Program-made: the position numbers and the translations under genes
IMG/VR virus record: IMGVR_UViG_3300027983_000098
Coordinates: 1 to 27,815 of that record
From: a virus
DNA length: 27,815 bases
Reading direction: 5' to 3' (one strand)
Notes under the pieces: generated by a model
Databases searched by the model: none
What the model was told of the DNA's origin: nothing
Seen by the model: only the letters and a program-made list of their open reading frames with translations
Shown here: piece after piece, positions 1,389-24,588 of the stretch
How positions within the stretch are numbered: the first letter of the stretch is position 1
Layout of the letters: every line of letters starts with the position of its first letter

Positions 1389-2384
1389 CTACGAGTAGCA
1401 GCTGATCAGCAGCAGTCCCGGTGCTCCAGCGCCGCCTGCCCGCGCGACCACTTCGCTCTGAAGATTCATGCCGCCTGAGCCGCCCGCGCCTTTGCCGGTG
1501 GCCGTAGCGCCAGAGGACGATGTTCCCGCTTCGCCGCCGCCAGTGCCGTAGCTCGAATTTGCACCCGACCCGGAGAAGCCGTTGCCCGGACTGAATGCCT
1601 GGCCGATTCCGCCAGCATCGCCGCCGGCGAGATACAGCGCTGTGCCGCCGCTCTGGCTGGCCAACGCCCCTGCGCCGCCGCCGCCGACCGCGCCGGGCGG
1701 CACGATCCCAGTCACCCCGAGGCCGCCCAGAGCACCGGGAAATGTGATGGACCCGAAGGTCCCGACCAGGGTTGTGACGGTGCCGGCCGCCCCGTTGCCG
1801 CTGCTGATGCCGATGACGCCGCCGGCGCCGCCGACCCCGATGGTGGCCACCAGGGAGGTCAGGCCGCTGGCGACTTCGACCTTGCCCCAGCCGCCGCTGC
1901 CGCCGCCCGGGCCGGGTGCGAACTCCCCCACGGCCGTGACATCAGCTGCACCCCCCCCGCCGCCGGCGCCCACGCCTTCGACCAAGATCCGGTTGGTGCC
2001 GGCTGGCAGTGCGACAGCGCCGTTGGAGGTGACCGCCAGTGTGCCGAGCAGTCGCCCTGGCGTGGCTGCCAGCTGCGCCATCGCCTCCATCGTGCCCTTG
2101 GTATTGAGGTTGGCCGCGATGTCGCCCGCAGTCCAGCTCAGCGCGGTAGTGCCTTCCTGCGCGCGCACGACGGTCAGCGCATCGCCTGATCGGACGGTAA
2201 CGTGGACCACTTCGCGCAGCAGCTTCGTGACCGCGTCGATCAACGTCATGACGAAGTATTGGCCGACGCTGGGGTTGGGAAACAGCACCCCGGTGCCAGG
2301 CGCCAGATTGCAGGTGGTGGCGACGTTGCTGATTGATCCCGCCAGGGTGGACGCGGCGTTGTTGCTGAATCGGATAATGGACAC
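1389..2384 (-). CDS. Glycine-rich tail fibre/adhesin 1, 331 aa
   Basis: The start is GTG 2384 with GGGAGA 8 nt upstream. Residues 1-100 are a baseplate-attachment-like domain (SIIRFSNNAASTLAGSISNV, TVVRAQEGTTALSWTAGDI). Residues about 135-325 are dominated by Gly-rich stretches (VGAGGGGG, GPGGGSGGWG, GGGGAGA) separated by short hydrophobic loops, the pattern of polyglycine-II bundles in T-even gp38-type adhesins, whose loops bind receptors. The protein ends GAPGLLLISCYS. It follows gpJ, as tail fibre genes do. The 108-nt gap before it contains an 11-bp tandem repeat and no gene. Confidence 0.7.
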   Translation of the reverse strand: MSIIRFSNNAASTLAGSISNVATTCNLAPGTGVLFPNPSVGQYFVMTLIDAVTKLLREVVHVTVRSGDALTVVRAQEGTTALSWTAGDIAANLNTKGTMEAMAQLAATPGRLLGTLAVTSNGAVALPAGTNRILVEGVGAGGGGGAADVTAVGEFAPGPGGGSGGWGKVEVASGLTSLVATIGVGGAGGVIGISSGNGAAGTVTTLVGTFGSITFPGALGGLGVTGIVPPGAVGGGGAGALASQSGGTALYLAGGDAGGIGQAFSPGNGFSGSGANSSYGTGGGEAGTSSSGATATGKGAGGSGGMNLQSEVVARAGGAGAPGLLLISCYS

Positions 2385-8871: not shown

Positions 8872-9178
8872 CAAAACCCCCTGCCGGCTGCCGCGGCGAC
8901 CAGATATCGCTGCCGGTAATGATGCGCGTTGGCATAGTCCTCAAGGCCTGCTTGCAGCGCGAATTCAGGCCACCCCGATGTCGCCTGCCAGTCGAGGATT
9001 GCGCCTAGATGGCCGGTTCCGTCGCGCCAGTATTCGCGGCCGCGGTCGATATCGGCAAGAAAGCGGCGAAGTCCGTAGAGTTGGACGAGGTGGTCCGGGT
9101 GCCCCAGAGGTCGCCCGTGCTCTTCAGCAGCGCTGCCAGCGATTTCGGGCGGTGCATGGCAGAGAGCACCGTAAAAAA
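8871..9178 (-). CDS. Frameshifted (-1) extension of the tail chaperone, GT-like
   Basis: In the -1 frame relative to the G-like gene, an open frame continues to a TGA at 8871 that overlaps the tape measure ATG by one base. Its latter part has the look of real protein (QLYGLRRFLADIDRGREYW, WPEFALQAGLEDYANAHHYR), and no good ATG or GTG with a ribosome site begins it. A run of six T on the coding strand (9173-9178, read GTG TTT TTT ACG) is a candidate slip site. A single-codon slip near TTC further downstream is an alternative. The left part of the span is arbitrary because the slip point is not proven. Confidence 0.5.
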
Positions 9179-9565
9179 CACGACGGCGCCCATCACCTCG
9201 GACTTCTCGCGCTCGCTGAAAACGCCCTGTTGCACCGCCACGGTGAGCGGCAGCGAGGCCCAGCCGTTGTCGCCGGGCTGCACGACATTGGACAGACGCG
9301 CCATCTCGGCCACCAGGCTGCGCTCCACGCCCTCGGCGCCGTCCCAAACCTGCATCGCCTTGGCCACGTCTTTGAGCGCCAAGGCGGCCAGCCGGGGCCC
9401 GGCGATGACCGACAAGCCCTCGGCGTTGATGACGGCAAACGTTTTGCCCAGCACAAGCCAATGCGCCTCAAACACCTGGCGCGACAGCGGCGCGACGTGA
9501 ACGAATATCTCGTGCGCGCCGCGGGGAATCGGGATGATGAGGTTTAGCTCCTCGTCCATACGCAT
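9005..9565 (-). CDS. Tail assembly chaperone, G-like short product
   Basis: I start this at ATG 9565, preceded by a G-rich Shine-Dalgarno; an earlier in-frame start lies inside the tube gene. The 186-residue protein begins MRMDEELNLIIPIPRGAHEI and is helical (ALALKDVAKAMQVWDGAEGV), with a low-complexity Ser/Thr/Ala end. Position between the tube and tape measure genes is diagnostic of tape-measure chaperones (lambda G/GT), which are usually made in a short and a frameshifted long form. A second frame continues without interruption to the tape measure start. Confidence 0.7.
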   Translation of the reverse strand: MRMDEELNLIIPIPRGAHEIFVHVAPLSRQVFEAHWLVLGKTFAVINAEGLSVIAGPRLAALALKDVAKAMQVWDGAEGVERSLVAEMARLSNVVQPGDNGWASLPLTVAVQQGVFSEREKSEVMGAVVFFTVLSAMHRPKSLAALLKSTGDLWGTRTTSSNSTDFAAFLPISTAAANTGATEPAI

Positions 9566-9578
9566 GGTCCGCCCCCCC

Positions 9579-10025
9579 TCAGATGAGGTTCCACATGGTC
9601 GAATTGACGTTGTAGTAGCCATGGATCGACACGACGAAGCCGGGATCGTCGCCGGCCATGCTCATTTCACGCACCGATGCGATCGCGGTGTTGAAGAAGT
9701 CGTAGTTCTGGAAGTTGGACGCATCGGGGATTAGCTGCATCTGCCCCAGGCGAGCGTCGAGCTCCATCCGTTGCTTGTAGAGCACGGCCAGCTGCTGGGT
9801 CTTTAGCAGGTGGACGGTCAGGTTTGCGATCATGTAGGGCTCGGGGCTGGTGACCGCGCCTGTCATCGTGGGGATGAACAGCGTGGACTCGCCCTGGAGC
9901 GCCAGCGAGATGCCGGCCTTGCCCAAAAAGGCGGCCGTCACGTTGAGGGTGGGGAAAGCGGCCAGCACCAACGAGCCGCGGATGCGGTTCAGCGTGCCCT
10001 GGTCCTGCAGCGGGTTGGCGGCCAT
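9579..10025 (-). CDS. Tail tube protein (DUF3277-like)
   Basis: The 148-residue protein begins MAANPLQDQGTLNRIRGSLV at ATG 10025 and directly follows the sheath gene. Its size, mixed alpha/beta composition (LNVTAAFLGKAGISLALQG, MTGAVTSPEPYMIANLTVHL) and a conserved-looking centre (LLKTQQLAVLYKQRMELDAR) fit the small tube proteins paired with DUF3383 sheaths. Such proteins stack as hexamers to make the DNA conduit. It is followed by the tail chaperone and the tape measure gene, the canonical order. Confidence 0.8.
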   Translation of the reverse strand: MAANPLQDQGTLNRIRGSLVLAAFPTLNVTAAFLGKAGISLALQGESTLFIPTMTGAVTSPEPYMIANLTVHLLKTQQLAVLYKQRMELDARLGQMQLIPDASNFQNYDFFNTAIASVREMSMAGDDPGFVVSIHGYYNVNSTMWNLI

Positions 10026-10058
10026 CGTGTGTGCTCCTGGTGGGTGCGACGCAGCGGA

Positions 10059-11375
10059 TTAGGCTGCCGGGAAGTCGGTCACGTTGACGTTGAAGATAAT
10101 CTCGATGAAGCCGCGCGCTGGCGTGTACGTCACCGACATGCCTGCGTATTTGCCGATCGAATAGTCGCTGGGGTTGGTGAGCACGTAGGAGGGGAAGTCC
10201 ACCGCCTCCACCGTGACCGGCGCCAGCACCAGGCCGTAGGAGATGCCGCGATTCATCGTGGCCTGCGCGCGCGCTTGCAGCCGGTTGATGCCGTTCTGGT
10301 CGTAGTAGAGCGGGTTGATCGGGTTGTTGCTGCCATTGATGATGTCATTGGCCAGGTCGATCGCCACGTTGATCTGCGTCCAGTCAACCGAATACCAGTA
10401 GCTCGCATCGCGGCCGTCCATCGTCGTGCCCCACAGCAGCACGGTGTTGGTGATCCTGCCCTCAGCGCCGGTCCCGACCCAATTGACGTGTGCCGCCTTG
10501 AGCGTGTTGAACAGCGCGTGGTTGCCGCGCAGGGGATATGCGGTCACCCCGTAGAGATACCGGAACGCGGCCGGCGCCACCTTGTTTGTGCTGCTGGGGT
10601 TGTTGTTCAACCAGGAGTAGAAGGCCGCGGCCAGGGATACCTCCGTCACCGGCGTCAGCGGCGCTTCGATCAAGCCGACGACGCCCTTCATCGTGTCGTT
10701 GAAGCTGGTGTAATTCGCCGTCGTCATCGTGACCCAGAAGTAGGTTTTCGATGTGGTGGATGAGAAAGTCGCCATGTACGAGTGGAAGGTGGGCTCAGCC
10801 GGGAATGTGCGCGGGATGAGGTAGGCGTAGATTTCCTGGGGCACGCTGGCAGCGATGAACGCCTGCAGTGCGACCACGGCGTTGACGTTCGTCACGTTGC
10901 CCAGCTCGAGCACATAGACGCTGACCGCTGTGCCCTGCGCGAAGAAAGTGGCGTTCATCGCGATCAGGTTGGAGCGGCCGACAGGTGCCCAGGAGCCCTG
11001 GATCGTGACAACGCCGGGGGTCGCGGCCAGCGGGAATGTGAAGGTGCTGGCACCAGTCACGGTGCAAACGCGGTCGACGCCGTTGTACGCCACGGGTGTG
11101 ACGCCAGCGATGGAGATGCTGAGCACGTTACCGATCGTCATCCCGTGCGGCGCAGCGGTGGTGACGGTCACGACGCTGCCCGACCAAGTCATCGAGGTGA
11201 TGGCCGCGAGCGGCCGCAGGATGGCAGCCAGGTCGCCCACCGCGCTCAGCAGGGTCGTCGTGCCCGCAGCGGTGGTGGTGCCGCCCTGGCTGACGAATGC
11301 GCCGGTGCGCTGCAGGGTGGATGGCGCCGGTGCAATCGTCTGGGAGACGTTGACCGTGACGATTTGGTTGGCCAT
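10059..11375 (-). CDS. Contractile tail sheath protein (DUF3383-type)
   Basis: ATG 11375 has GGAGG 7 nt upstream. The 438-residue protein resembles DUF3383 sheath-like proteins: N-terminal VTVNVSQTIAPAPSTLQRTG, middle YFWVTMTTANYTSFNDTMKG with AAFYSWLNNNPSSTNKVAP, and a C-terminal beta part ending ARGFIEIIFNVNVTDFPAA. In this group the sheath surrounds the tube and contracts to drive it through the envelope. It is shorter than T4 gp18. Residues about 59-132 form the same inserted beta module as in the decoration protein and gpJ (AAPHGMTIGNVLSISIAG, VAYNGVDRVCTVTG). The tube gene follows, as expected. Confidence 0.85.
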   Translation of the reverse strand: MANQIVTVNVSQTIAPAPSTLQRTGAFVSQGGTTTAAGTTTLLSAVGDLAAILRPLAAITSMTWSGSVVTVTTAAPHGMTIGNVLSISIAGVTPVAYNGVDRVCTVTGASTFTFPLAATPGVVTIQGSWAPVGRSNLIAMNATFFAQGTAVSVYVLELGNVTNVNAVVALQAFIAASVPQEIYAYLIPRTFPAEPTFHSYMATFSSTTSKTYFWVTMTTANYTSFNDTMKGVVGLIEAPLTPVTEVSLAAAFYSWLNNNPSSTNKVAPAAFRYLYGVTAYPLRGNHALFNTLKAAHVNWVGTGAEGRITNTVLLWGTTMDGRDASYWYSVDWTQINVAIDLANDIINGSNNPINPLYYDQNGINRLQARAQATMNRGISYGLVLAPVTVEAVDFPSYVLTNPSDYSIGKYAGMSVTYTPARGFIEIIFNVNVTDFPAA

Positions 11376-11389
11376 GGGCGGAGCCTCCA

Positions 11390-11425
11390 GGGGCTGTGCG
11401 ATCAGGGATGCGCGGCGACAGCCCC
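11390..11425 (-). promoter_or_regulatory. Hairpin just upstream of the tail sheath ribosome-binding site
   Basis: An 8-bp perfect stem (GGGGCTGT with ACAGCCCC) closes a 20-nt loop and ends a few bases before the GGAGG of the sheath gene. No T-run follows. It may define the 5' end of a processed sheath message or modulate ribosome access. Confidence 0.4.
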
Positions 11426-11447
11426 GGAGGGATGCCGCCGGCAGTCA

Positions 11448-11852
11448 TCAGGTGACGACGCGGGTCAGCTGCGTCGAGGTGAACGTCTGGGTGTCGGTGC
11501 CCGTGATGGAGACAATTCCGAGGAACGGCTCGGTCGGGAACACGCTGGCGAGGAACAGCGTGCCGCCGGGGATGACCTGGACGCCGCGCCCGGCCGCGGT
11601 GGTGCCGAACGCGACCAGCATCAATGCTGCGCCGTGGTTGCTGATCGAGCCCCCGACAGCGCGCGCAGGGTTGGCGGCCATCGCCACTTGGAATGTGCCG
11701 CTCACCGCGATGGTGCCGAGCGTCTCCGTGACCGTCAGCGTGACAACAGGCGCATCCTGGGTGACGATCAGCGCGCCGGCGCTGTCGACTGCCAGCGTCA
11801 TGGGAATGCCGTTGCGCATTCCGACGAGGACTTGGGAGGGATTCTGAGGCAT
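11448..11852 (-). CDS. Small beta-rich virion protein, 134 aa
   Basis: The start at ATG 11852 has AAGGAG about 9 nt upstream. The sequence alternates hydrophobic and small residues throughout (VVTLTVTETLGTIAVSG), typical of a beta sandwich. The core, MAANPARAVGGSISNHGAAL followed by VAFGTTAAGRGVQVIPGGTL, matches the layout of a small phage domain in which NPaR, a strand ending in N, and a PGG turn recur. The 115-aa protein at 1031-1378 has the same layout. It lies directly upstream of the tail sheath gene, so it is likely structural. No catalytic motif. Confidence 0.6.
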   Translation of the reverse strand: MPQNPSQVLVGMRNGIPMTLAVDSAGALIVTQDAPVVTLTVTETLGTIAVSGTFQVAMAANPARAVGGSISNHGAALMLVAFGTTAAGRGVQVIPGGTLFLASVFPTEPFLGIVSITGTDTQTFTSTQLTRVVT

Positions 11853-11879
11853 GGGTGGCGCTCCTTGCGCTGATGACGA

Positions 11880-12005
11880 TCAGGAACTCGCCGATACCAC
11901 GCCCGGCGATGCGATGCACTCTGCTTCCGCAATGTCCTGGACAAATGCTGGAATGCATGCATGCACGATCCGCCAGCTGCGGAACGCAGCGACGATCGCC
12001 GTCAT
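11880..12005 (-). CDS. Possible small protein, 41 aa
   Basis: ATG 12005 overlaps the stop of the preceding micro-frame. The product begins MTAIVAAFRSWRIVHACIPA, continues with a short helix (FVQDIAEAE) and ends SPGVVSASS. It fills the only gap of about 230 nt in this otherwise tightly packed module, which is the main reason to list it. I do not recognise it, and it could be non-coding spacer. Confidence 0.35.
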   Translation of the reverse strand: MTAIVAAFRSWRIVHACIPAFVQDIAEAECIASPGVVSASS

Positions 12006-12055
12006 GTTCTGCCAGCCGCCCCGCGGTCGACGCGCTGGCTTTTACGGGTGCTCAT
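12002..12055 (-). CDS. Possible 17-aa peptide after the PhoD fibre gene
   Basis: ATG 12055 has GGAG 8 nt upstream and encodes MSTRKSQRVDRGAAGRT, a basic peptide. Its stop overlaps the ATG of the next small frame (ATGA). It may be a leader peptide for the downstream frame, or have no function. Length gives no statistical support. Confidence 0.25.
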   Translation of the reverse strand: MSTRKSQRVDRGAAGRT

Positions 12056-12083
12056 CAGAATAGCTCCTGCATGGGGGTGGCAC

Positions 12084-14729
12084 TCATGGGATAATTCCAA
12101 CCGCCTGAAGGAAGGTCGTTTCGCGGTTGTGGTAAAGCAGCACGTCGGCGTCCGTCAGCCCGGCGGAGATCATGCCCATTGCTACGCGCCGCCCACCCGA
12201 TTGACGACTGGCTGGAATGATGGAGTTCCATCCACAGAACCACATGGTTGTCGCATCTGGTGCGGTGCTGACTTGGGTTACAGTTTCCACCGCCACCCCG
12301 TTCACGAACTTCTTGTAGTTTGCGCTGCCGGTGCGGCTCATGCCAAAGCTCCCGATTTGTGACGCGCTTTGAATTAAATTATTGGAAGTGGTGGAAGAAG
12401 ATCGGGTGCGGAAATCAAAAGTTAACAAAGCCCCGTTAGAGTTGATGAGGTATTTTTCCCCGCCAAAATCTCCATTCCCGGAGCTTAGCGTGGTGGTGTA
12501 GCGCAAGAAAGCGGCCATGCTATTCTGGTTGCCAGCCGGGATTGCATATCCCGTTTCAAGATGTGCCTTATTTGCGCCGCCGATGTTTTCACCGCGCCAA
12601 CCAGCTTTGGCCGAGAAGTTGACAGCGCCGTTTGGAACAATCGCCCCGGTCCCTGGCGCCTTAAATTCAATCAGACTGGCCTGCTGGGTATGCGCCCCGA
12701 GCCAATAAAGTTTAAGCACCTGAGACCAAACGCTGTCAGTTTTTAGCCCCGCGATGAACTCGTTGAGCGCAAAAACTTGTTCATCGTTTGGCCGAACTGT
12801 CACCTCAGCCAGCCATGCAGATGTTTCCGCTTCCAGAGTGATCCAGTTGACAATGCGCGCTGTGTTGACCCCTAGCGCGCATCGCACCGGACCGCTGAGC
12901 GTTACCGTGTCTGGAGCCCCATCGGTATAAGCGCGCTGGATATCTGCGGTATTCCGGTTAGGATCGAAGGTCAAAACTCCGCTGGGGCCGCTGGCCCAGG
13001 CGTAGTTGACCGTGCAACCGGGAATAGGCCCGAACCAGTTTTTTTGCACCTGTACTGTTGCGGCACGCAGAGTTTCGATTGTGAGGGTGCTTGCGGCGTG
13101 GAAACCAACCGCCACAGCAACGTCGTTGCTGCGATGGCTCGTTAGCAAGGTCGACGCGGGCCCGGCTAACGGGGCACCACGAAAATCTGCCTGCCATGCG
13201 ATATTATCGCCGCCGTCATCCTCGATTGAAACATTTAGAAACGCCGTGCCGTTGCCGAGCCCAGCAGCCGCATCGCCGTCAACACCGTTCCAGGTGAAGA
13301 TTGCAGAAACGGGGCTCAGCGTCCCGATATTCCAACCCGAGGACGTGAAGAACGGCAGTTTTCCATCTTTTAGCGTGGAGCGGTCGGTGTTAGTCCCATC
13401 ATCTGCCACCACAACGTGCGTGTCACCAGTAATAAGCATCACATGCACAGGCGAGTTGCGGAACTTATTGGCCAGCGTCTCTTGTTCGGCCGAGTTGAAT
13501 CGGTCCCAGCTATCAAGAATTGATGGCGTCCATGTGCTTGTGCTAATAAACACCAACATCTTCATGCCGTCAGTCGCCGCCTGGTCGATTGCCGCCAGCA
13601 CGGCCGCGAGGTGGTCGTATCCGGTTGGCGGATCGGCCCCATCGCCCAAAAAGGTCGGGCCGCCGTTCACGTAGCGTCGCTGGCTCCTCAAATCAGGCAT
13701 GATAAACCGCACCCGCCCCCAGGTCCACGACTGCGATAGCACCCCGGCATTCCAATCAGGATAGCGCGGGGTGGTTTCGCGCACGACAAGGCGCGTATTT
13801 GCGCCGATCTGCGCGTGAGTTACCTTGGTGGCGGTAGCAATATCCCAATGATTATCATCGGGGCCGAAATCATGGTCATCCGGCATGTAGACTATAGGCA
13901 CTGTCTGAGTCATGCCGGCCACCCCGCGAAAGCCCCGCCAAGCGCGCGTGTTGCGGTCCCGCGGGGCGCGAGGGTCGTTCAGAATGATATCGGAATAGTC
14001 CATATCGCCGCAGTGAACCGCGAAGGCAGGCGACAGTGCGGCGACGGGGGCGTAGGGATCGCCAAGCTGGAATGCCCCATTGGTGCAGGAGCCGACGATG
14101 AAGTTGAACCGCTTGGCCGTGCCGTTGGTAGGAGCGGTGCGGAACTGGCCGACAGTGCCGGAAGCAACCCCATTGATCCGCGCGGAGTAGAAATATGCGG
14201 TATCGGGCGCAAGCCCGGTCGCGGTGAACGTCCCGGTGAAGTAAGCGGCGCTGAAGCCAAGTGACGCAACCGGCGCAGTATTTGCCGAGACAAACACCGG
14301 CGATGAAAGATTGGCGTTCACGCTGACCACAAGGCCCACAGTTGCCGCATCCGTCGCCGGGTCCGTGCCGATCACGTCGTAGTTGACCACGGCAGAGGAT
14401 GACGTGACGCCGCCCGACCACATGCGGGTCACGCTCGGCAGCGTGTAGAGACCAAGCGCGATTTTGGTGTCCAGGAGCGCAGCGGCAGGAACGCTGCCGC
14501 CGATCGCCACGCCGTTGATGGTGCCACCTGTAATGGCCACGCCGTTGATGGTGCCACCTGTAATGGCCACCGCTGCTGGGTTCTGCGTCGCCATGCCGCC
14601 CAGCCCGAGATTGCCTCGTGCAGCGGGCATGTTCGGCACATCTGCGAGGTTCGCCGCCCGCAACAGCCGCGCTTGCAGCTCCGCGTTGACGTCCTGAGCA
14701 GTGGCTAGGTTGCCGGGCGCGATCGTCAT
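12084..14729 (-). CDS. Fibre-like protein with PhoD-type metallophosphatase domain, 881 aa
   Basis: ATG 14729 overlaps the preceding stop. Residues 1-95 look like a tail-fibre N-terminus (AANLADVPNMPAARGNLGLG) with a duplicated AITGGTINGV unit. Residues about 98-200 form a fibronectin-like domain as in alkaline phosphatase D. The PhoD catalytic motifs follow in order: GSC (213-215), GDMDYSD (241-247), MPDDHDFGPDDN (282-293), PDLRSQR (345-351) and ITGDTH (433-438), which would hold two metals and cleave phosphodiesters or monoesters. The C-terminal third has a beta-rich, lectin-like look (FVNGVAVETVT, MWFCGWN). No signal peptide. Placed between the neck and sheath genes, it is probably a virion fibre that hydrolyses a phosphate-containing surface polymer; the substrate is unknown. 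The 3' part has clearly AT-richer DNA, suggesting acquisition. Confidence 0.8.
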   Translation of the reverse strand: MTIAPGNLATAQDVNAELQARLLRAANLADVPNMPAARGNLGLGGMATQNPAAVAITGGTINGVAITGGTINGVAIGGSVPAAALLDTKIALGLYTLPSVTRMWSGGVTSSSAVVNYDVIGTDPATDAATVGLVVSVNANLSSPVFVSANTAPVASLGFSAAYFTGTFTATGLAPDTAYFYSARINGVASGTVGQFRTAPTNGTAKRFNFIVGSCTNGAFQLGDPYAPVAALSPAFAVHCGDMDYSDIILNDPRAPRDRNTRAWRGFRGVAGMTQTVPIVYMPDDHDFGPDDNHWDIATATKVTHAQIGANTRLVVRETTPRYPDWNAGVLSQSWTWGRVRFIMPDLRSQRRYVNGGPTFLGDGADPPTGYDHLAAVLAAIDQAATDGMKMLVFISTSTWTPSILDSWDRFNSAEQETLANKFRNSPVHVMLITGDTHVVVADDGTNTDRSTLKDGKLPFFTSSGWNIGTLSPVSAIFTWNGVDGDAAAGLGNGTAFLNVSIEDDGGDNIAWQADFRGAPLAGPASTLLTSHRSNDVAVAVGFHAASTLTIETLRAATVQVQKNWFGPIPGCTVNYAWASGPSGVLTFDPNRNTADIQRAYTDGAPDTVTLSGPVRCALGVNTARIVNWITLEAETSAWLAEVTVRPNDEQVFALNEFIAGLKTDSVWSQVLKLYWLGAHTQQASLIEFKAPGTGAIVPNGAVNFSAKAGWRGENIGGANKAHLETGYAIPAGNQNSMAAFLRYTTTLSSGNGDFGGEKYLINSNGALLTFDFRTRSSSTTSNNLIQSASQIGSFGMSRTGSANYKKFVNGVAVETVTQVSTAPDATTMWFCGWNSIIPASRQSGGRRVAMGMISAGLTDADVLLYHNRETTFLQAVGIIP
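14506..14565 (-). repeat. 30-bp tandem duplication in the fibre gene
   Basis: Two identical 30-bp units (14506-14535 and 14536-14565), followed by the first few bases of a third, encode the decapeptide AITGGTINGV twice. Confidence 0.9.
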
Positions 14730-15817
14730 GACCAGGTGGCCTCACTGTTCCAAAAGAATTCGTTCCAGCGGGCGGTGCCGGGGTCAGGCGTCACGCCCGC
14801 CTGGGGTATATATGCGACGAACGCAGAGAGGATCATCTGCCTCGCCATGTCGCGCGCTGTCGCCTGGAGGTAATTTACCTCGTATTCGATCGTCTTCTTC
14901 TGCGCCAGCACACCCATCTCGATCTGCGGCTGCTTTTCATCGCGCGGCACTGGCATGTTCATGATGCCCAATTTGGCGGAATTCTGGAACTGCCACTGCA
15001 CGTAGTCGCAGAGGTCCAGCACCGCGGCGTTGCGCAGGCCATAGGTCGTCAGCCGCACTTTCTCCCGCACAAGCTGGCTGCGGCTCTGGGTGCGGTTGAT
15101 GATCGGCGCGGAGCTGATCGCCTGCGTCGATTCGGGGAAAACATGCACCGAAACGAACGGCGGCGGTAGGTCGGCCGGCACCAGGAACGACGGAAGAATG
15201 GGCCAGGGCAGACCGCCCAGGCCAAGCATCGGGATATAGGGGTTCATCAAGTCCAGCCAGATCGGCAGCGAATTGGAGACCACTTGATCCGGCGAGAACG
15301 ACAACAGATCGTCGATGATCTGCGTCTCCATCGTCGAGAGGATCGCGTTGCCCTCGTAGTGGTGGATTTTTGCCTGCTCGTAATACATGCCGCGCTGCGC
15401 GAAGCTAAAACGTATGTCCTGCCAGTCGCCAATATACATTACCGTGGGCGAAATATCGCTGAAGTCCTTGATCTCTTCCTCGCTGGTGAACAGCACGCGA
15501 TTCAGTGCGGCGCTATCGCCCTCTTCCTGGACCGCCTGGCTCATGTAGTGCAGCGAGCCATGCGCCACCACGACCGGCGCAGAGTAGATCTGATCCGGCA
15601 CGGCGTTGTAGGAGACGGCGTTGAACCGGTGCGCATTGAACAGCGCCGATGGGCTGGCGAGGTCGGCTCTGACCCAAAACACCGAGCCGTCGATCGGCAG
15701 CGCCAGGCGCACGTATTTCGTGAATGCGATCGTCTGCTTTTCCGAGAGCACGCGCTCGCCGGCTTGGATCGTGGACGCCATCTGGTGGCGCGCCCGCGCG
15801 GACTCGCTGGCCGACAT
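14726..15817 (-). CDS. Conserved structural protein of the neck region, 363 aa
   Basis: The start at ATG 15817 lies 3 nt after the preceding stop. The protein begins MSASESARARHQMASTIQAG, followed by a region rich in Tyr, Phe and Val (KYVRLALPIDGSVFWVRADL). The middle includes YIGDWQDIRFSFAQRGMYYE and QIIDDLLSFSPDQ, and the C-terminal part is helical (RNAAVLDLCDYVQWQFQ). No enzymatic motif is seen. Proteins of this size occur between the adaptor and sheath genes in related myophages, but I cannot name the family. The stop overlaps the next gene's start (ATGA). Confidence 0.55.
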   Translation of the reverse strand: MSASESARARHQMASTIQAGERVLSEKQTIAFTKYVRLALPIDGSVFWVRADLASPSALFNAHRFNAVSYNAVPDQIYSAPVVVAHGSLHYMSQAVQEEGDSAALNRVLFTSEEEIKDFSDISPTVMYIGDWQDIRFSFAQRGMYYEQAKIHHYEGNAILSTMETQIIDDLLSFSPDQVVSNSLPIWLDLMNPYIPMLGLGGLPWPILPSFLVPADLPPPFVSVHVFPESTQAISSAPIINRTQSRSQLVREKVRLTTYGLRNAAVLDLCDYVQWQFQNSAKLGIMNMPVPRDEKQPQIEMGVLAQKKTIEYEVNYLQATARDMARQMILSAFVAYIPQAGVTPDPGTARWNEFFWNSEATWS

Positions 15818-19361: not shown

Positions 19362-21170
19362 TTAGCGGCTCCCGTTGCTGATACCGGTCACCCGGCGACG
19401 ATTTGCCATGAATTGCGACATCCATGCACTGGGTTCGCCGACGAAGTTGGTGATTCGGCGTCCGGTGCTGTCCTGGGTCACGATCTCGCGCAGCATGCCC
19501 TCGGGCACGTCGAGCGGGTTGCGCGCCGCGATCGCTGCGTCGGCGTAGATCGCCTGCGCAGCCAGCTCCAGCGCCGGCGACGGCAGCGTGGCCAGGTCGA
19601 TGCTCTGCCACGCAGAGGAGTGCCTCTGCATGCCTTGCGCCATGCGGCGCCGGTATGCGACCAGGGTTTCGCCCTGGACCGGCCGGCTGGCAGCACCACC
19701 GTGCGCAGCATAGACGCCGTCGGCACGGACCTGCTCGGCGGCCAGCTCGCGGCCCTCGTTTTCCGGCATCGGCATGATGCGCGCCGTGAGCGCGTCGATC
19801 TCCCTGCGCATCCGAGCGTTGGCGCTGTCCATGCGCACCAGCGCGGCGTCCTTGGCCCGGACCGCCTCGGTTTCCTTGGCCGCGGCGTCGGCCTTTGTCT
19901 TCTGCGACGAGGACCAGCCGGCGCAGGCAGCGTCCTTGCGCATGCGATCGACCGCCGTCTCTGTCGGCATCGATGCGATCTCGGGCGGAAATTCCTCGCC
20001 GCCGTCGTTGCCGGCAGCAGCATCAGCCACCGGCGGAGTCGGGTCCGGTTCGGCGAGCTGCGGCGGGGACGCGCTGCTGCCGCCATCCATCGCGTCGATC
20101 CGGGTGGCCATGCCATCCAAGCGCGCCAGGAGCGCGTCGAGCTTGCCGCCCATGTCCGCGTCATGCTGGTCGATTTTGGCTGTGGGATCGACCGGGGGGG
20201 CGGAGGGATCGGTCTTCATGTTCGGGTCCACGGGGGGGGGCTCTCCGTTAGTTGCTGTGGTGGCGACGCCGGTCGGTGCCCCGCCTTTGTCCCAGACGCC
20301 TTGCTCGCAGATCGCGAGGTGGTCCAGTAGGCTCGGCTTGCCCTCGATCAGGAGGGTTCCGCCGTCATGAGTCTTCTCTGTGGTGTTCGCGGCGGCAGAG
20401 CGGAATACCACAGCCGGAGAAGTTGACAGACGATGGTCTTCGATCATCTGGATCGTCGAATCATCGTACACCTTCGCAACCCCCCATACTTCATTTTGCT
20501 TGACATATGGAAGCATGATCGTGCCGACCACGCGGGCAGCGAACTCCGCGGAATCGAGCACGTTGGTCTCGGGATGCTCGATCACCACGGGCAGGCCGTT
20601 GCAGCGGGCGAGGAAGCGATCGGTGAGGTAGAGCGACGGATCGCGCCAGACGTGCTCGTTCAGCCCCTCGCGGTATGCCATCCCTGTGCCTGTGATGCGC
20701 ATGGCCACCAGCGCGATGTTCTCGTACCGCTGCGGGCTGGTCAGGTCGCCATCGCGCACCGCCTGGGCGACGGCGAGCTCGTCCATGTCGATCCGCGCCA
20801 GCGTGACCGCGGCGCCGGGATGCAGGGGTTCGGGCGCCTCGCTGGGATACGCCCACTGGGCTGCGTCGTGCTCGCCGTTCAGCCGCGGCTCGAACGGCTC
20901 CGCCACCGGCACCAGGAATGCGGTCCAGTCAACGCCATCGGCCTGGCGTCGCGTCCACTGGCGCAGCCTGGCCGGGTCGCCTGATAGTTTCGGGTCTGCG
21001 CCGACTTCCTCTGCAGCCTCGCGAATGGCTGCCTGTGCGGGCGTTTCGCCTGGCTCTATTTTCCCACCGGGCGTGCCCCACTCGCCCGCATGGTCGCCCT
21101 CGGCGCTGCGCCGCACCAGCAGCACGCGACCGTCAGGGACCATGAACAGGATGCCGGCAGCCGCAATCAC
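19362..21170 (-). CDS. Nudix hydrolase / prohead protease (DUF2213) / scaffold fusion
   Basis: This 602-residue protein starts at GTG 21170. Residues 1-130 form a Nudix domain with an exact Nudix box at 36-58 (GKIEPGE, seven residues, then REAAEEVGA), which binds metal and hydrolyses nucleoside diphosphate-linked substrates. Residues about 155-300 match DUF2213 prohead proteases: MAYREGLNEHVW, NGLPVVIEHPE (H199 a candidate catalytic His), RLSTSPAVVFRS (S249/S251 candidate nucleophile) and LLDHLAICEQG. After a Pro-rich linker at 311-335, the rest is scaffold-like: coiled-coil segments at 342-362 and 422-466, then an Ala-rich C-terminus. Protease plus scaffold in one chain just before the decoration and capsid genes is the classic head-assembly arrangement; the N-terminal Nudix domain is not. 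Which Ser/His are catalytic is inference. Confidence 0.82.
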   Translation of the reverse strand: MIAAAGILFMVPDGRVLLVRRSAEGDHAGEWGTPGGKIEPGETPAQAAIREAAEEVGADPKLSGDPARLRQWTRRQADGVDWTAFLVPVAEPFEPRLNGEHDAAQWAYPSEAPEPLHPGAAVTLARIDMDELAVAQAVRDGDLTSPQRYENIALVAMRITGTGMAYREGLNEHVWRDPSLYLTDRFLARCNGLPVVIEHPETNVLDSAEFAARVVGTIMLPYVKQNEVWGVAKVYDDSTIQMIEDHRLSTSPAVVFRSAAANTTEKTHDGGTLLIEGKPSLLDHLAICEQGVWDKGGAPTGVATTATNGEPPPVDPNMKTDPSAPPVDPTAKIDQHDADMGGKLDALLARLDGMATRIDAMDGGSSASPPQLAEPDPTPPVADAAAGNDGGEEFPPEIASMPTETAVDRMRKDAACAGWSSSQKTKADAAAKETEAVRAKDAALVRMDSANARMRREIDALTARIMPMPENEGRELAAEQVRADGVYAAHGGAASRPVQGETLVAYRRRMAQGMQRHSSAWQSIDLATLPSPALELAAQAIYADAAIAARNPLDVPEGMLREIVTQDSTGRRITNFVGEPSAWMSQFMANRRRVTGISNGSR

Positions 21171-21243
21171 ATTGTTTATCTCGATATGCGATTCCTTCTT
21201 TCGTGCTTCACAACAGGCGCGTCAATCATTTCGCGCGAAAACG

Positions 21244-21273
21244 CTGGCAATCCGATCGAAAACCGCCTATAAA
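21244..21273 (+). promoter_or_regulatory. Candidate sigma70 promoter for the plus-strand cassette
   Basis: A -35-like CTGGCA (21244-21249, 4 of 6 matches) and a -10-like TATAAA (21268-21273, 5 of 6) are separated by 18 bp. They lie in the divergent gap between the protease fusion gene and the first cassette gene, about 40 bp before its start. The gap is AT-richer than its surroundings, as expected for a promoter. A promoter for the minus-strand gene may also lie here, but I see no clear one. Confidence 0.45.
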
Positions 21274-21316
21274 ACCACTGCGCGGCGATTGTGCCGGCAC
21301 GCACAGGATGCACGCC

Positions 21317-21508
21317 ATGGACCTCACAGCCAATCGCACCACTGCCAACCTCTCGGCGGAACGCGCCGCGGAACTGACCAGCGCCCGCGCTGCTATCCGC
21401 GCCGCAACCGACGCGTGGGACGCGGCTGGGACCGACACCGCCGGTTGCCGCGCCGCCCTCGACGACCTCGCTGCCGCGCAGGATCGGGCACGCGCGGCAC
21501 TCGCCTAA
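21317..21508 (+). CDS. Hypothetical helical protein, 63 aa, first gene of the cassette
   Basis: The likely start is ATG 21317, with AGGA 8 nt upstream; an ATG three codons earlier (21308) is also possible. The protein begins MDLTANRTTANLSAERAAEL and is a charged, Ala-rich amphipathic helix throughout. Its end, DLAAAQDRARAALA, resembles the end of the zinc-ribbon-like protein four genes downstream (AAQQRARDALA), and the DNA there is nearly identical. A sigma70-like promoter lies just upstream. I recognise no family. Confidence 0.58.
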   Translation: MDLTANRTTANLSAERAAELTSARAAIRAATDAWDAAGTDTAGCRAALDDLAAAQDRARAALA

Positions 21509-21531
21509 TCCCCACACCCGCACACAGGAGA
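21473..21531 (+). repeat. 59-bp direct repeat, copy A
   Basis: It covers the last codons of the 63-aa gene, its stop and the start-associated element. It differs from copy B (22394-22452) at only four positions, all inside the coding part. Confidence 0.85.
21517..21531 (+). repeat. Start-associated repeat, copy 1
   Basis: The 15-bp sequence CCCGCACACAGGAGA includes the Shine-Dalgarno of the Ala-rich gene and is identical in all four copies. Confidence 0.85.
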
Positions 21532-21538
21532 TACCCAG

Positions 21539-21757
21539 ATGGCCAAGACCTGCTCCGAAGCCGCCGCAGCCGCAGCCGCATCCGTCGCTCACGACGCCGT
21601 CGCTGTCGCAACCACAGCCGCCACAGCCGCATACCGGGCTTACCGGGCCAGCGGCACCCGCGCAGCCCGCGCAGCCAGCGTTGCAGCCGACGCAGCCCGC
21701 GCAGCCGCTGCGGCCGACTACAAAATCGCTCTCGCCGCAGCCTATGCCGCAGCCTGA
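21539..21757 (+). CDS. Alanine-rich helical protein, 72 aa
   Basis: The start at ATG 21539 follows the repeated AGGAGA element by 7 nt. About half of the residues are Ala (38 of 72 by my count), broken by regularly placed Arg, Asp and Tyr, for example AAYRAYRASGTRAARAASVA. This predicts one long helix or a coiled coil. Such composition can also arise by chance in GC-rich DNA, but the in-phase ribosome-binding element and tight spacing favour a real gene. No signal peptide or obvious transmembrane segment. Function unknown. Confidence 0.55.
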   Translation: MAKTCSEAAAAAAASVAHDAVAVATTAATAAYRAYRASGTRAARAASVAADAARAAAAADYKIALAAAYAAA

Positions 21758-21762
21758 GCCCC

Positions 21763-21777
21763 CCCGCACACAGGAGA
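21763..21777 (+). repeat. Start-associated repeat, copy 2
   Basis: Identical 15-bp element ending 5 nt before ATG 21783; it supplies that gene's ribosome-binding site. Confidence 0.85.
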
Positions 21778-21782
21778 CGACG

Positions 21783-21989
21783 ATGGCCTACACCGTTTTC
21801 GCCAACATCGACCAGCAGGACACCAGCGAGATCAGCACCCACCGCACGCTGCGTGCCGCCGGCAAATCCTACCAGGCCGCCCACACCGGCAACCTCCGCC
21901 GCGTGCTGGACCAGGACGGCCGCGACGTCACCCAGCAGGCACTCGACGCGGTGAACGGCTACCCGGCACACGCAAGCCGCTACGTCTGA
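21783..21989 (+). CDS. Hypothetical protein, 68 aa
   Basis: I chose ATG 21783 because the repeated element with AGGAGA ends 5 nt before it; the frame is open further upstream only as a shadow of the preceding gene. The product begins MAYTVFANIDQQDTSEISTH and contains YQAAHTGNLRRVLDQDGRDV. It looks like a small globular alpha/beta protein without signal peptide or membrane segment. I do not recognise a family. Neighbours on both sides are similarly small and carry the same start element. Confidence 0.62.
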   Translation: MAYTVFANIDQQDTSEISTHRTLRAAGKSYQAAHTGNLRRVLDQDGRDVTQQALDAVNGYPAHASRYV

Positions 21990-21993
21990 CGCA

Positions 21994-22008
21994 CCCGCAC
22001 ACAGGAGA
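21994..22008 (+). repeat. Start-associated repeat, copy 3
   Basis: Identical 15-bp element ending 5 nt before ATG 22014. Confidence 0.85.
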
Positions 22009-22013
22009 CGACA

Positions 22014-22223
22014 ATGAGCGACAGCAACATCCGCCTGATCAGCACCGACCGCCTGGCCTACAGCCAGACCCACGGGCCGCATGAAATCTTCGTCGAGGCG
22101 ATGCGCCGCCGCACCGACCTGATTTGCAGCAGGGAGGGCAAGAAGTGGAAGGACACCCACAACAAGGCGGAACGCATCCTTCTGGAAATCATCCGGGGGT
22201 ACTACGCCATGAGGGCCTCCTGA
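22014..22223 (+). CDS. Hypothetical basic protein, 69 aa
   Basis: The start at ATG 22014 follows the repeated AGGAGA element by 5 nt. The protein begins MSDSNIRLISTDRLAYSQTH and continues with GPHEIFVEAMRRRTDL and a Lys/Arg-rich amphipathic region (SREGKKWKDTHNKAERILL). It is mostly helical and positively charged, so nucleic-acid or protein binding is possible, but I recognise no family. The stop overlaps the start of the zinc-ribbon-like gene, so the two are probably translated together. Confidence 0.62.
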   Translation: MSDSNIRLISTDRLAYSQTHGPHEIFVEAMRRRTDLICSREGKKWKDTHNKAERILLEIIRGYYAMRAS

Positions 22224-22429
22224 TGGTTCTCCGCATCGTTCCCCCCTGCCGCAACTGCGGTGGGAGCGGCTGGCATCGGATGCCAGACCCGGCAGGCCGC
22301 GGCGATACCGTGCGGTGCGAGCCGTGCAACCCGACGCCACCACCGCCGCGCATGACTCCCGCCGAGCTTCGCGCCAACCTCCGCACCCTCGGTGCCGCGC
22401 AGCAGCGGGCACGCGACGCACTCGCCTAA
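22223..22429 (+). CDS. Small zinc-ribbon-like protein, 68 aa
   Basis: The ATG at 22223 overlaps the previous stop by one base (TGATG), so I chose it over upstream starts in the same frame. The sequence has two Cys pairs, CRNCGGSGW near the N-terminus and CEPC about 22 residues later. The CxxCGGSG form resembles the DnaJ-type zinc knuckle, so a single zinc site that binds a partner or nucleic acid is likely. The second half (MTPAELRANLRTLGAAQQ) is a helix. Its C-terminal codons and the following spacer nearly repeat the end of the first cassette gene, which points to a duplication. Function unknown. Confidence 0.65.
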   Translation: MVLRIVPPCRNCGGSGWHRMPDPAGRGDTVRCEPCNPTPPPPRMTPAELRANLRTLGAAQQRARDALA

Positions 22430-22452
22430 TCCCCACACCCGCACACAGGAGA
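22394..22452 (+). repeat. 59-bp direct repeat, copy B
   Basis: It covers the last codons of the zinc-ribbon-like gene, its stop and the next start element. It is 921 bp from copy A in the same orientation, which makes recombination between copies possible. Confidence 0.85.
22438..22452 (+). repeat. Start-associated repeat, copy 4
   Basis: Identical 15-bp element ending 7 nt before ATG 22460. It is the 3' part of a longer 59-bp repeat shared with copy 1. Confidence 0.85.
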
Positions 22453-22459
22453 CTTCGCC

Positions 22460-22786
22460 ATGCCCCGCTACATCATGATCGACAACAGCTCCGGCTGCAT
22501 CTTCGGCGACACCGGCGACCTGGACGGCGCCGCGCGGGACGAAACCCCGCTGGAGGCGGTTGCCCGGCTTGACGCCAGCATCTCCGCCCACGGCCGCTTG
22601 TACGCGGAAGAGAGCCGCCACGACCTGCACAGCAATGAGACCGGCTACCACGTCTACCGGGCTGACGTGCGCGGCTCCGAGGCGGTGCCCCTCGTCGACG
22701 ACGGCCAGGACCAGGAGACAATCGACAGCGTCGAGCGCGAGTGCGAGTACGTCACCACGATCCGCTGCACCAGCGCGGGGTGCTGA
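22460..22786 (+). CDS. Hypothetical acidic protein, 108 aa
   Basis: The start at ATG 22460 is fixed by the strong AGGAGA element 7 nt upstream, part of the repeated start-associated sequence. The protein begins MPRYIMIDNSSGCIFGDT and is acidic (LVDDGQDQETIDSVEREC), with four Cys, three of them in its last 18 residues. A pattern of hydrophobic residues alternating with Tyr and His (SNETGYHVYRADV) suggests a small alpha/beta fold. I cannot name a family. It belongs to a run of compact plus-strand genes that look like phage accessory genes (host interaction or early expression); that role is inference from size and context only. Confidence 0.65.
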   Translation: MPRYIMIDNSSGCIFGDTGDLDGAARDETPLEAVARLDASISAHGRLYAEESRHDLHSNETGYHVYRADVRGSEAVPLVDDGQDQETIDSVERECEYVTTIRCTSAGC

Positions 22787-22788
22787 AT

Positions 22789-23274
22789 ATGGCCCGCAAC
22801 CTGGTGCTCTGCCGGTCTGACGCGGGCGACGGCGGGTGGAGCCTGCACCCGCCCGGCACCACAGACGCATCGCTGGCCGATGGGTCCGCGCGCACGCTGG
22901 CAGATGGCAACGCCGAACGGTGCGCCGACGGCGAGTGGAATCGCCCGAACATGGATGACCGTCACGCTGCATGGGACGAGTGCGGACCGAACACCGCGCG
23001 CAGCGTGAGCATCGAGATCGTCTATGGCGCGCGGTCGGTGGACGACGCAGACCGCGAACGGGCCGCGACTGCTGCCGCTCGCATCCTCAATGAGGCCGGC
23101 GTCTCCGCTGCCGTCGCAGCCACCGAATTCCAGCGCCAGTGGCTGCTTTACGACGACGAGACCCCCATGACCGGGCTCGCCCTGGTCTGGATCGAGGCAC
23201 GCGCTGCCGCAGACATCGCGCTGACCGTAGGGTGGGCCAATCCGTGCGGCGCCAGTTGTACGATCATCCTGTGA
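22789..23274 (+). CDS. Hypothetical protein, 161 aa, last gene of the inverted cassette
   Basis: I do not recognise this protein. It begins MARNLVLCRSDAGDGGWSLH at ATG 22789, 2 nt after the stop of the preceding gene. Unlike most of the cassette it has no repeated start element, so it is probably translated by coupling. It is acidic, with a possible helix at DDADRERAATAAARILNEAG and a hydrophobic end (GASCTIIL). Its stop lies 12 nt from the convergent stop of the topoisomerase gene. I see no strong terminator between them, so transcripts from the two strands could overlap. Confidence 0.6.
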   Translation: MARNLVLCRSDAGDGGWSLHPPGTTDASLADGSARTLADGNAERCADGEWNRPNMDDRHAAWDECGPNTARSVSIEIVYGARSVDDADRERAATAAARILNEAGVSAAVAATEFQRQWLLYDDETPMTGLALVWIEARAAADIALTVGWANPCGASCTIIL

Positions 23275-23286
23275 CGCAACCGGGCC

Positions 23287-24588
23287 TCAAGCCGTCCTGG
23301 GGTCGAATCCCAGCATGGCCACGAGGCCCGGCGGGTTCTCTGCCAGTTCCTCGTCGTCGTCGACGCTGTCGTCGGTGTCCCATTCGGCCGGCGGGGTTTC
23401 CGCCGTGCCGAAGAACGCCTCGGGGAAGCTGCTGTCGGGCAGCGGCTCGTCTGCGTCCGCGCGGATGAGCTCATTCATGGCCGACCTCCAAGGGGCGAAA
23501 ACTGCAGGGTTGATGTAGCTTTGCAACGCGACACCCGGCGTGTTGCCCAGCTTGGCCGAAACGACCTTCGCCACTTCCATCGCCATCGCCTGAAACGCTT
23601 TTGCTGAGGTCGGTGGCGGTCCTGTCACCAGAGACGCTGCGGTGCGCGTTCCGAGCAATGTCCGGAAATCCTTGGTTTTGAACTTGCCGCCAATCTGCTT
23701 AACGTGGGCGCCGAGCTTGATTTGGTTGAGCGTGCCGAACAAGCGACCGTCAGCACCCGCGCCGCCAGCGCGTGCTGTCAACATCGCTCGCAACCCTGGA
23801 TCTTCCACGGGCAGGTCGAGGTTCACGCCCTTCTTGCCGACGAATTTCAGCCGAACTTCGTTGCCATCGCGCACGACGTGCTTGCCCAAGAGGTTGCTCG
23901 CGCCGAACGCCTTGACCTTGGCGCCCGTGTCGCTGTCCGACCCAGGCCGGAGCCCCATTTTCATGATCAGGTCCGTGCAGTCGGCCGCATCCTTGGTGGC
24001 TTGGTTCTCGGATTTCGCTTGGGCGTCGTTTTTGCGTTTTATGCTGTCAAACGCCTTGTCGAGCGCCTGCACCCTCGCGAACTTCGACGCCTGCTGCTTT
24101 GCCACGAATTCGGCTGAGTAGATTGCGGTCGGCCTACCCTTGGCGTCCCTTCCCGCGGCGATCAGCTCCGCTTTCGGGTTTTGGTCAACCGTGACGCTGA
24201 GCCAGTTAGGCGGGATTTTCGCAGCCAGCACATGCGCAGGAAGTGCTGCGCCGTTCGCGAGCGTCCTCTTGCCGTCCACCACCTTTGTGGCAGCGTGGCT
24301 CGCTGCGCGGCCCGTCGTCGGGACAGCAGACGGCTCCTCCTGCCGTGGCGGCGGCTTGACTTTCGGCGCCCCCTTCTCCGCGCCGGTGCCAGACTGTTTG
24401 CGCGCGCTGGCCGGGGTGGAAGCGGGACCACCGCTGAGGCTGAATTTCCCATCCTCCGCCCTCGTAATCTTGGACTCGTCGAACTCGGCGGTGTCGGCTC
24501 GGCCGCGCGAATGCTCGATGCGAGTAAGGCGATCCAGCAGACTGTTGGTGAGGAGCAGAACGCGGTCGAGTTTGTCGGCGTCGATCAT
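23287..24588 (-). CDS. Type IB DNA topoisomerase (poxvirus/bacterial-type)
   Basis: This 433-residue protein starts at ATG 24588, which has a good Shine-Dalgarno (AAAGGTGA) and overlaps the MuF-gene stop. Residues 1-120 are a helical then Pro/Ser/Ala-rich leader that includes TRAEDGKFSLSGG, a motif type seen in phage head-associated proteins. The topoisomerase fold begins at about 124 with IPPNWLSVTVDQNP and GRDAKGRPTAIYS, diagnostic of the TopIB N-terminal domain. The active-site set is complete: R214 (MGLRPGS), K252 or K253 (FVGKKG), R309 (KTKDFRT), N349 (KLGNTP, the Asn-for-His swap known in bacterial TopIB) and Y358 (SYINPAV). Such enzymes relax supercoils through a 3'-phosphotyrosyl intermediate. 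An acidic tail follows (DTDDSVDDDEELAENPP). Its place between the MuF and protease genes is unusual. Tyrosine recombinases share the fold but lack this N-terminal domain. Confidence 0.88.
   Translation of the reverse strand: MIDADKLDRVLLLTNSLLDRLTRIEHSRGRADTAEFDESKITRAEDGKFSLSGGPASTPASARKQSGTGAEKGAPKVKPPPRQEEPSAVPTTGRAASHAATKVVDGKRTLANGAALPAHVLAAKIPPNWLSVTVDQNPKAELIAAGRDAKGRPTAIYSAEFVAKQQASKFARVQALDKAFDSIKRKNDAQAKSENQATKDAADCTDLIMKMGLRPGSDSDTGAKVKAFGASNLLGKHVVRDGNEVRLKFVGKKGVNLDLPVEDPGLRAMLTARAGGAGADGRLFGTLNQIKLGAHVKQIGGKFKTKDFRTLLGTRTAASLVTGPPPTSAKAFQAMAMEVAKVVSAKLGNTPGVALQSYINPAVFAPWRSAMNELIRADADEPLPDSSFPEAFFGTAETPPAEWDTDDSVDDDEELAENPPGLVAMLGFDPRTA

Follow-up and report, generated by a model that had tools for sequence, protein, structure and literature searches.

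P0001, the 881-residue product of the gene at 12084..14729, is probably a virion fibre that carries an active PhoD-type phosphoesterase and a lectin-like tip and works on the cell surface, a reading drawn from its sequence, its modeled fold and its locus. The window, by which we mean the whole stretch of DNA analyzed, is a 27,815-base viral record with the structural module of a contractile-tailed phage. The structural genes identified in it are all on the minus strand and follow one another toward lower coordinates. Portal, capsid and scaffold, major capsid, and head-tail genes lead to P0001, which is followed by sheath, tube, tape measure (including a lytic transglycosylase-like region), baseplate hub, spike and wedge, and a conventional tail fibre. 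A DNA search of annotated phages with the window sequence found no relatives. The Certevirus-type phages Pantoea PdC23 and Klebsiella Chronis share the structural module and gene order of the window but have no fibre gene at the P0001 locus. The best bacterial-genome relatives of the major capsid protein are in a Rhizobiales MAG (72%) and Martelella (64%), followed by other Pseudomonadota and one Nitrospira MAG. The host is probably a Gram-negative member of the Pseudomonadota, a soft call that depends on major capsid similarity.

Elsewhere in the window, positions 21170-23290 hold no obvious minus-strand gene. This stretch lies between a NUDIX-containing head gene (19362-21170) and the gene at 23287-24777, and it contains a 94-nt repeat (copies at 21438 and 22359) and repeated leaders, CCCGCACACAGGAGA, at 21763, 21994 and 22438, ahead of small plus-strand ORFs. 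It may be a cassette of small genes that was inserted here and whose ribosome-binding leaders were duplicated.

Domain architecture of P0001

What kind of protein is encoded at this position? The PhoD-type gene proposed in the original prediction corresponds to a real open reading frame, for which the strand, not given at the time, is minus. It begins with ATG, overlaps the stop of the upstream structural gene by 4 bp, and is encoded inside the structural module between the phrog_6359 gene and the sheath gene. The features of the protein and its surroundings are as follows.

14726..15817, minus strand: upstream structural gene (phrog_6359), the fixed left border of the P0001 locus
12084..14729, minus strand: putative fibre protein P0001, 881 aa, with anchor, PhoD-like domain and lectin-like C-terminus
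14532..14729, minus strand: N-terminal anchor, residues 1-66, with the tail-fibre motif NLADVPNxPAARGNLGLGGMATQNPAA
14130..14435, minus strand: beta-sandwich domain resembling PhoD_N and the purple acid phosphatase N-terminal domain, residues ~99-200
13110..14129, minus strand: PhoD-like metallophosphoesterase core, residues ~201-540
14085..14093, minus strand: GSC, residues 213-215; Cys215 aligned to the Fe3+ ligand Cys180 of Bacillus subtilis PhoD (BsPhoD)
13995..14009, minus strand: GDMDY, residues 241-245; Asp242 and Tyr245 correspond to GDxxY of BsPhoD (Asp207 and the Fe-binding Tyr)
13869..13880, minus strand: DDHD, residues 284-287; Asp284/285 aligned to Asp265/266 of BsPhoD
13686..13694, minus strand: DLR, residues 346-348, near-invariant in 40 phage homologues
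13416..13427, minus strand: GDTH, residues 435-438; Asp436 aligned to the metal ligand Asp436 of BsPhoD
12087..12842, minus strand: ConA/LamG-like C-terminal domain, residues ~630-881, common to large phage tail proteins
11880..12005, minus strand: 3' end (~41 codons) left over from a small gene whose full form (122 and 120 aa) is found in the related contigs L074 and L075
11448..11852, minus strand: small MPQNP... protein (134 aa), which in the wider family is usually alone at the locus
10059..11375, minus strand: tail sheath (phrog_205), the fixed right border of the P0001 locus
1389-2384, minus strand: conventional tail fibre with a standard N-terminus, at the usual fibre locus

Both ends of the protein are as originally proposed. 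Residues 23-77 resemble repeats of a solved short tail fibre, gp92 (9zd7; phmmer, whole-sequence E 2.5e-9), which bears out the tail-fibre-like N-terminus. The C-terminal part matches phrog_26223, and its model matches ConA/LamG-type lectin domains at E about 1e-6, so that the lectin-like C-terminus is borne out as a ConA/LamG-type fold in a model of moderate confidence (mean pLDDT 61). Botulinum-toxin binding domains also appear among these fold matches and were set aside as a common lectin fold without functional meaning here. A counterpart of residues ~630-881 forms the C-terminus of ~1000-1240-aa proteins in six other viral contigs (L078, L080, L082, L083, L090 and L092), which, judged by their N-termini, are read as host-specificity tail proteins.

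The central domain is more divergent. With P0001 alone, Pfam PhoD (PF09423) scores 19.7 bits (E 5e-4), and 22.9 bits with the isolated domain, under the cut-off of 27 bits; P0001 is therefore filed as a divergent PhoD-like protein and not as a canonical PhoD. The N-terminal beta-sandwich behaves similarly, with Pfam PhoD_N at 5e-4 and Pur_ac_phosph_N at 7e-4, both under cut-off, and its strands are seen in the model. A search of NCBIfam with P0001 matched nothing, a plasmid search gave one weak match, and the PhoD domain is 22-28% identical to those of phage relatives. Profile searches nevertheless place it in the family: the core matches the phage profiles phrog_13624 ('hydrolase', 7e-23) and phrog_24476 ('phosphodiesterase', 5e-22), and a profile of P0001 with six other phage sequences matches, among solved structures, that of B. 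subtilis PhoD, 2yeq, at 1.4e-30. Structure prediction agrees, the best PDB match of the AlphaFold model of residues 1-560 (mean pLDDT 72.5, PhoD blocks mostly 80-98) being again 2yeq (Foldseek E 9e-20, TM 0.58/0.62), ahead of purple acid phosphatases.

The hallmarks from which PhoD identity was first proposed, GSC, GDMDY, DDHD, DLR and GDTH, are all present in that order and are not chance matches. In BsPhoD the site contains one Fe3+ and two Ca2+, the ligands being Cys180, Asp207, Asp265, Asp266, Asn271, Asn272 and Asp436 plus an Fe3+-bound Tyr, and substitution of the named residues (Cys180 to Asp436) abolishes or lowers activity (PMC4223295). By alignment, the predicted Fe3+ ligand positions of P0001 are all occupied (Cys215, Asp242, Tyr245), as are Ca2+ ligand positions by Asp284, Asp285 and Asp436. 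Candidate CaB ligands, Asp291/Asp292, reach the Asn271/Asn272 positions only with a one-residue loop shift; Asp is allowed at CaB position 272 of BsPhoD (PMC4223295). In place of the two-metal site assumed originally, homology predicts Fe3+ plus two Ca2+ (PMC4223295). Thus P0001 is like BsPhoD (2yeq; PF09423) in its fold, its N-terminal beta-sandwich and its Cys/GDxxY/DDH[ED]/GDxH ligand scheme, but it lacks a signal peptide, has one extra residue in the CaB-ligand loop, and is fused to a fibre anchor and a lectin-like domain.

Might the domain be a catalytically dead PhoD fold, kept as a rigid adhesion or spacer module of a receptor-binding fibre? The high sequence divergence of the domain would suit this, but the ligand positions Cys215, Asp242, Tyr245, Asp284, Asp285 and Asp436 have all been kept. 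Moreover, among 40 divergent phage sequences (~25% identical) the columns of Asp242, Tyr245, Asp284, Asp285, Asp436 and His438 are near-invariant, though DDHD formed part of the pattern by which such sequences were chosen and its constancy carries no weight. The Cys of GSC, a position where BsPhoD-type phosphatases may also have Asp, is the exception among the ligand columns: it varies across the phage PhoD-like family (Ala in Thermobifida phage P1312, for example) but is present in P0001. We regard loss of catalysis as unlikely.

An exchangeable body on a conserved anchor

The clearest evidence on the role of P0001 comes from its closest relatives. On both sides of P0001 the IMG/VR contig L074 is 93.7-93.9% identical to the window in DNA, and the flanking DNA of L075 is 77-79% identical. 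Each has a fibre gene at the same place, with a 66-residue anchor that is 88% (L074) or 74% (L075) identical to that of the window. Past residue ~66, P0001 has no significant similarity to the fibre of either one, and the L074 and L075 fibre bodies share 68% identity with one another across 416 residues. Since L074 and L075 share one body, theirs is taken as ancestral and the window state as derived. On this comparison of sequences, the PhoD-lectin body is a gain of the window lineage that replaced everything beyond residue ~66, and the right breakpoint of the swap is placed inside the downstream small gene, whose 5' part was lost in the exchange. GC3 is 0.82-0.88 in neighboring genes, against 0.70 for the PhoD portion and 0.60 for the C-terminal portion, and the lowered values are consistent with recent acquisition. 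As a single query against viral contigs, P0001 found only the same phage, L002, and this contig, 99.9% identical in DNA, shows that the arrangement did not arise by misassembly in a single sample. A constant anchor with an exchangeable body is typical of host-interaction fibres, and we take this arrangement as the strongest evidence for a virion role of P0001.

How widespread is a fibre at this locus? We surveyed 77 relatives, L074 and L075 included, that have both border genes, the phrog_6359 gene and the sheath gene. Between these there is usually just a ~100-135-aa MPQ... or similar protein, and in some relatives other sequence is inserted, glycosyltransferase-like genes and beta-helix-like extensions among it. 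Pantoea phage PdC23 and Klebsiella phage Chronis have no fibre gene here, their upstream gene being directly adjacent to the sheath gene. The NLADV-type anchor is found at the locus in the window, L074 and L075 only, among the 77 relatives and the window, from which the fibre appears to be an accessory appendage of their lineage. A role for P0001 as the main tail fibre was set aside: a fibre with a standard N-terminus is present at 1389-2384, and at the P0001 locus most of the wider family has no gene beyond the small MPQ... one, if it has that.

Other occupants of the locus are varied. In L118, L119, L122 and L129 a ~230-270-aa protein is found with glycosyltransferase-like genes, to which L118 adds NAD-epimerase- and methyltransferase-like genes; this suggests a hot spot for surface-related cargo. 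The L096 locus (9122-14521) encodes a 170-aa protein with a related start (MTIAAGQPATAEDV), after which come proteins of 506 and 1127 aa whose starts resemble signal peptides, an unusual feature in phage structural loci. The small MPQ... protein is extended by glycine-rich or beta-helix-like sequence in L111, L116 and L165, and may itself be a small fibre. GIY-YIG-like endonuclease ORFs are inserted near the sheath gene in L131 (10746-11507), L165 (6958-7800) and L155/L156.

PhoD-like proteins of other phages

Because P0001 as a single query found only L002, the wider family was sought in IMG/VR viral contigs with a degenerate DNA pattern for DDHD[FY]G[PA][ND][ND]. The pattern matched 63 contigs, each with a long ORF holding the motif; 62 are additional to the window phage, which is represented among the 63 by L040 (the same contig as L002). 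DDHD is part of the selection pattern and its conservation is therefore uninformative, so only the other motifs were counted: GDxxY and [GAS]DxH are kept in all ORFs long enough for assessment (52/52). The complete ORFs (n=39) have a median length of 799 aa, and 28 of the 39 are at least 650 aa. Testable loci were those with a sizeable same-strand upstream gene, and the longest gene within three positions was compared; with one tape-measure family matched, a tape-measure gene lies no more than three genes upstream in at least 17 of these 34 loci. Other neighbors are tail-fibre or head-morphogenesis proteins, and in L038 the PhoD-like ORF is fused to LamG.

An anatomy identical to that of P0001 would be expected of an ordinary receptor-binding fibre whose working part is the lectin-like tip and whose phosphatase acts on virions already released or on debris, perhaps detaching progeny from phosphorylated glycans as the cell lyses. 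A part in release as well as entry is ascribed to many enzymatic fibres. The tape-measure-proximal position in other phages suits entry somewhat better, and we consider a fibre of this ordinary kind very unlikely.

Two other members of the family have unusual settings. In L073 (6839-13222) a 2127-aa ORF has its PhoD domain at the C-terminus, weakly matches a PA-IL-like lectin, and adjoins a gene with an RNA-ligase-like match. In L061 (1618-5812) the PhoD ORF directly follows head-morphogenesis genes and not tail genes, and judging by this contig, virion PhoD might sit on heads too.

Is P0001 instead an auxiliary metabolic gene (AMG) product, a PhoD phosphatase expressed during infection that frees phosphate for the host? 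A 2024 soil-metagenome study counted 23 phage phoD genes as phosphorus-acquisition AMGs, and the product of one, PhoD22, which is longer than some bacterial PhoDs, is active on pNPP (PMC10987575). Phage-encoded PhoD-like proteins are common, and the copy in Streptomyces phage Samisti12 is away from any obvious tail module; positions of this type elsewhere indicate that the phage PhoD-like class may be mixed. P0001 itself, however, has no export signal, and a Tat-like motif near the start occurs in 0/63 of the PhoD-like ORFs. It is not free-standing but fused to a fibre anchor and a tail-type C-terminal domain, it overlaps a structural gene, and it appears to have replaced the body of a fibre. 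A homologue in phage YongM was found with particles (PMC8875764), and the word 'tail' is absent from the main text of the study that named the AMGs (PMC10987575). A metabolic role for P0001 is decidedly improbable.

The protein of cyanophage YongM, annotated 'alkaline phosphatase D' (QLF85062; 5775..7658, minus strand), is a distant homologue of P0001. Like P0001, it and its counterpart in the Dolichospermum phage Dfl-JY23 have a PhoD-like domain with a C-terminal extension, and both adjoin a 'capsid fiber' gene. They differ in lacking the NLADV anchor, and their identity to P0001, 27% for YongM and 25% for Dfl-JY23, covers the PhoD region only. In LC-MS/MS of concentrated YongM, a sample whose purification for MS is not clearly described, the PhoD homologue ranked seventh by score (1132, 35% coverage) in a list that also includes capsid, sheath, tube and baseplate proteins and the adjoining capsid fibre protein (61% coverage); the authors place alkaline phosphatase D with DNA metabolism (PMC8875764). 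A UV-derived mutant, UV3, has a one-base deletion at 6196 in the PhoD ORF and is viable (PMC11356776), so that laboratory growth may not require the protein at full length. Tolerance of this C-terminal frameshift could be taken to favor a dead fold in P0001 as well, but the deletion lies past the PhoD domain and, by its position, would truncate the part that follows.

The gp22 'phosphodiesterase' of Thermobifida phage P1312 resembles P0001 in having a PhoD-like domain and a carbohydrate-binding C-terminus, and it lies two genes after the tape measure; unlike P0001, its metallophosphatase is at the extreme N-terminus and lacks the GSC cysteine. Its authors suggested a secreted superinfection-exclusion DNase, and virion MS did not detect gp22, but that analysis likewise failed to pick up its neighbor, the tail protein gp21, and several further tail proteins (PMC4569894). 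In the literature outside most subscription journals, we found no paper that describes PhoD-like phage proteins as virion enzymes. The fibre role of the original prediction is strengthened by the module swap, the tail-module context of relatives and the proteomics of a distant homologue, and it is weakened by the position of P0001 between the head-tail joining genes and the sheath, which is not the usual fibre locus (1389-2384).

Proposed action and significance

How might such a fibre work? We infer its location on the virion, its catalysis, its substrate and the order of events from the evidence above. The ~66-residue anchor would have been inherited with the phage and the PhoD-lectin body acquired as a module. 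When the phage meets a cell, the lectin-like domain would keep the fibre bound to a surface glycan, the Fe/Ca-dependent PhoD domain would hydrolyze phosphodiesters or phosphomonoesters nearby, and the surface would thereby be cleared or edited ahead of injection. Known targets of the PhoD family are teichoic acid phosphodiesters, as a proposed role, and phospholipids in the case of Streptomyces chromofuscus PLD (PMC4223295). These activities make phosphate-linked polysaccharide, LPS phosphate or phosphoethanolamine groups, and phospholipid head groups candidate substrates. Teichoic acid itself was set aside, the closest prophage capsid matches being in Pseudomonadota, by major capsid similarity only.

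The original prediction regarded a phosphoesterase on the virion as a distinct mechanism, which has to be given up in that general form: GDPD phosphodiesterases encoded in the tail modules of enterococcal phages are predicted to attack surface polymers (PMC10194240). They have a fold unrelated to that of P0001, and their setting is that of Gram-positive hosts and wall teichoic acid.

The fibre enzymes known to date are for the most part glycan lyases, hydrolases, deacetylases and esterases. Enzymatic fibres, tail phosphodiesterases of another fold, and PhoD-like phage proteins in databases are already known. A PhoD-type enzyme on the virion of a phage with a likely Gram-negative host, if confirmed, would point to phosphate-bearing surface structures as its target. 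The window and L074, with 94% identical flanks and different fibre bodies, come near to a ready-made experiment. For the family as a whole, the chances seem evenly balanced that many phage 'phoD' genes, including published phosphate-acquisition AMGs, encode virion enzymes, forming a widespread class of tail- and fibre-borne PhoD-type depolymerases or lipases that edit phosphate-bearing surface structures, Gram-negative hosts included. If many phage phoD products are indeed parts of the virion, the inference of phosphate acquisition from these genes would need revising.
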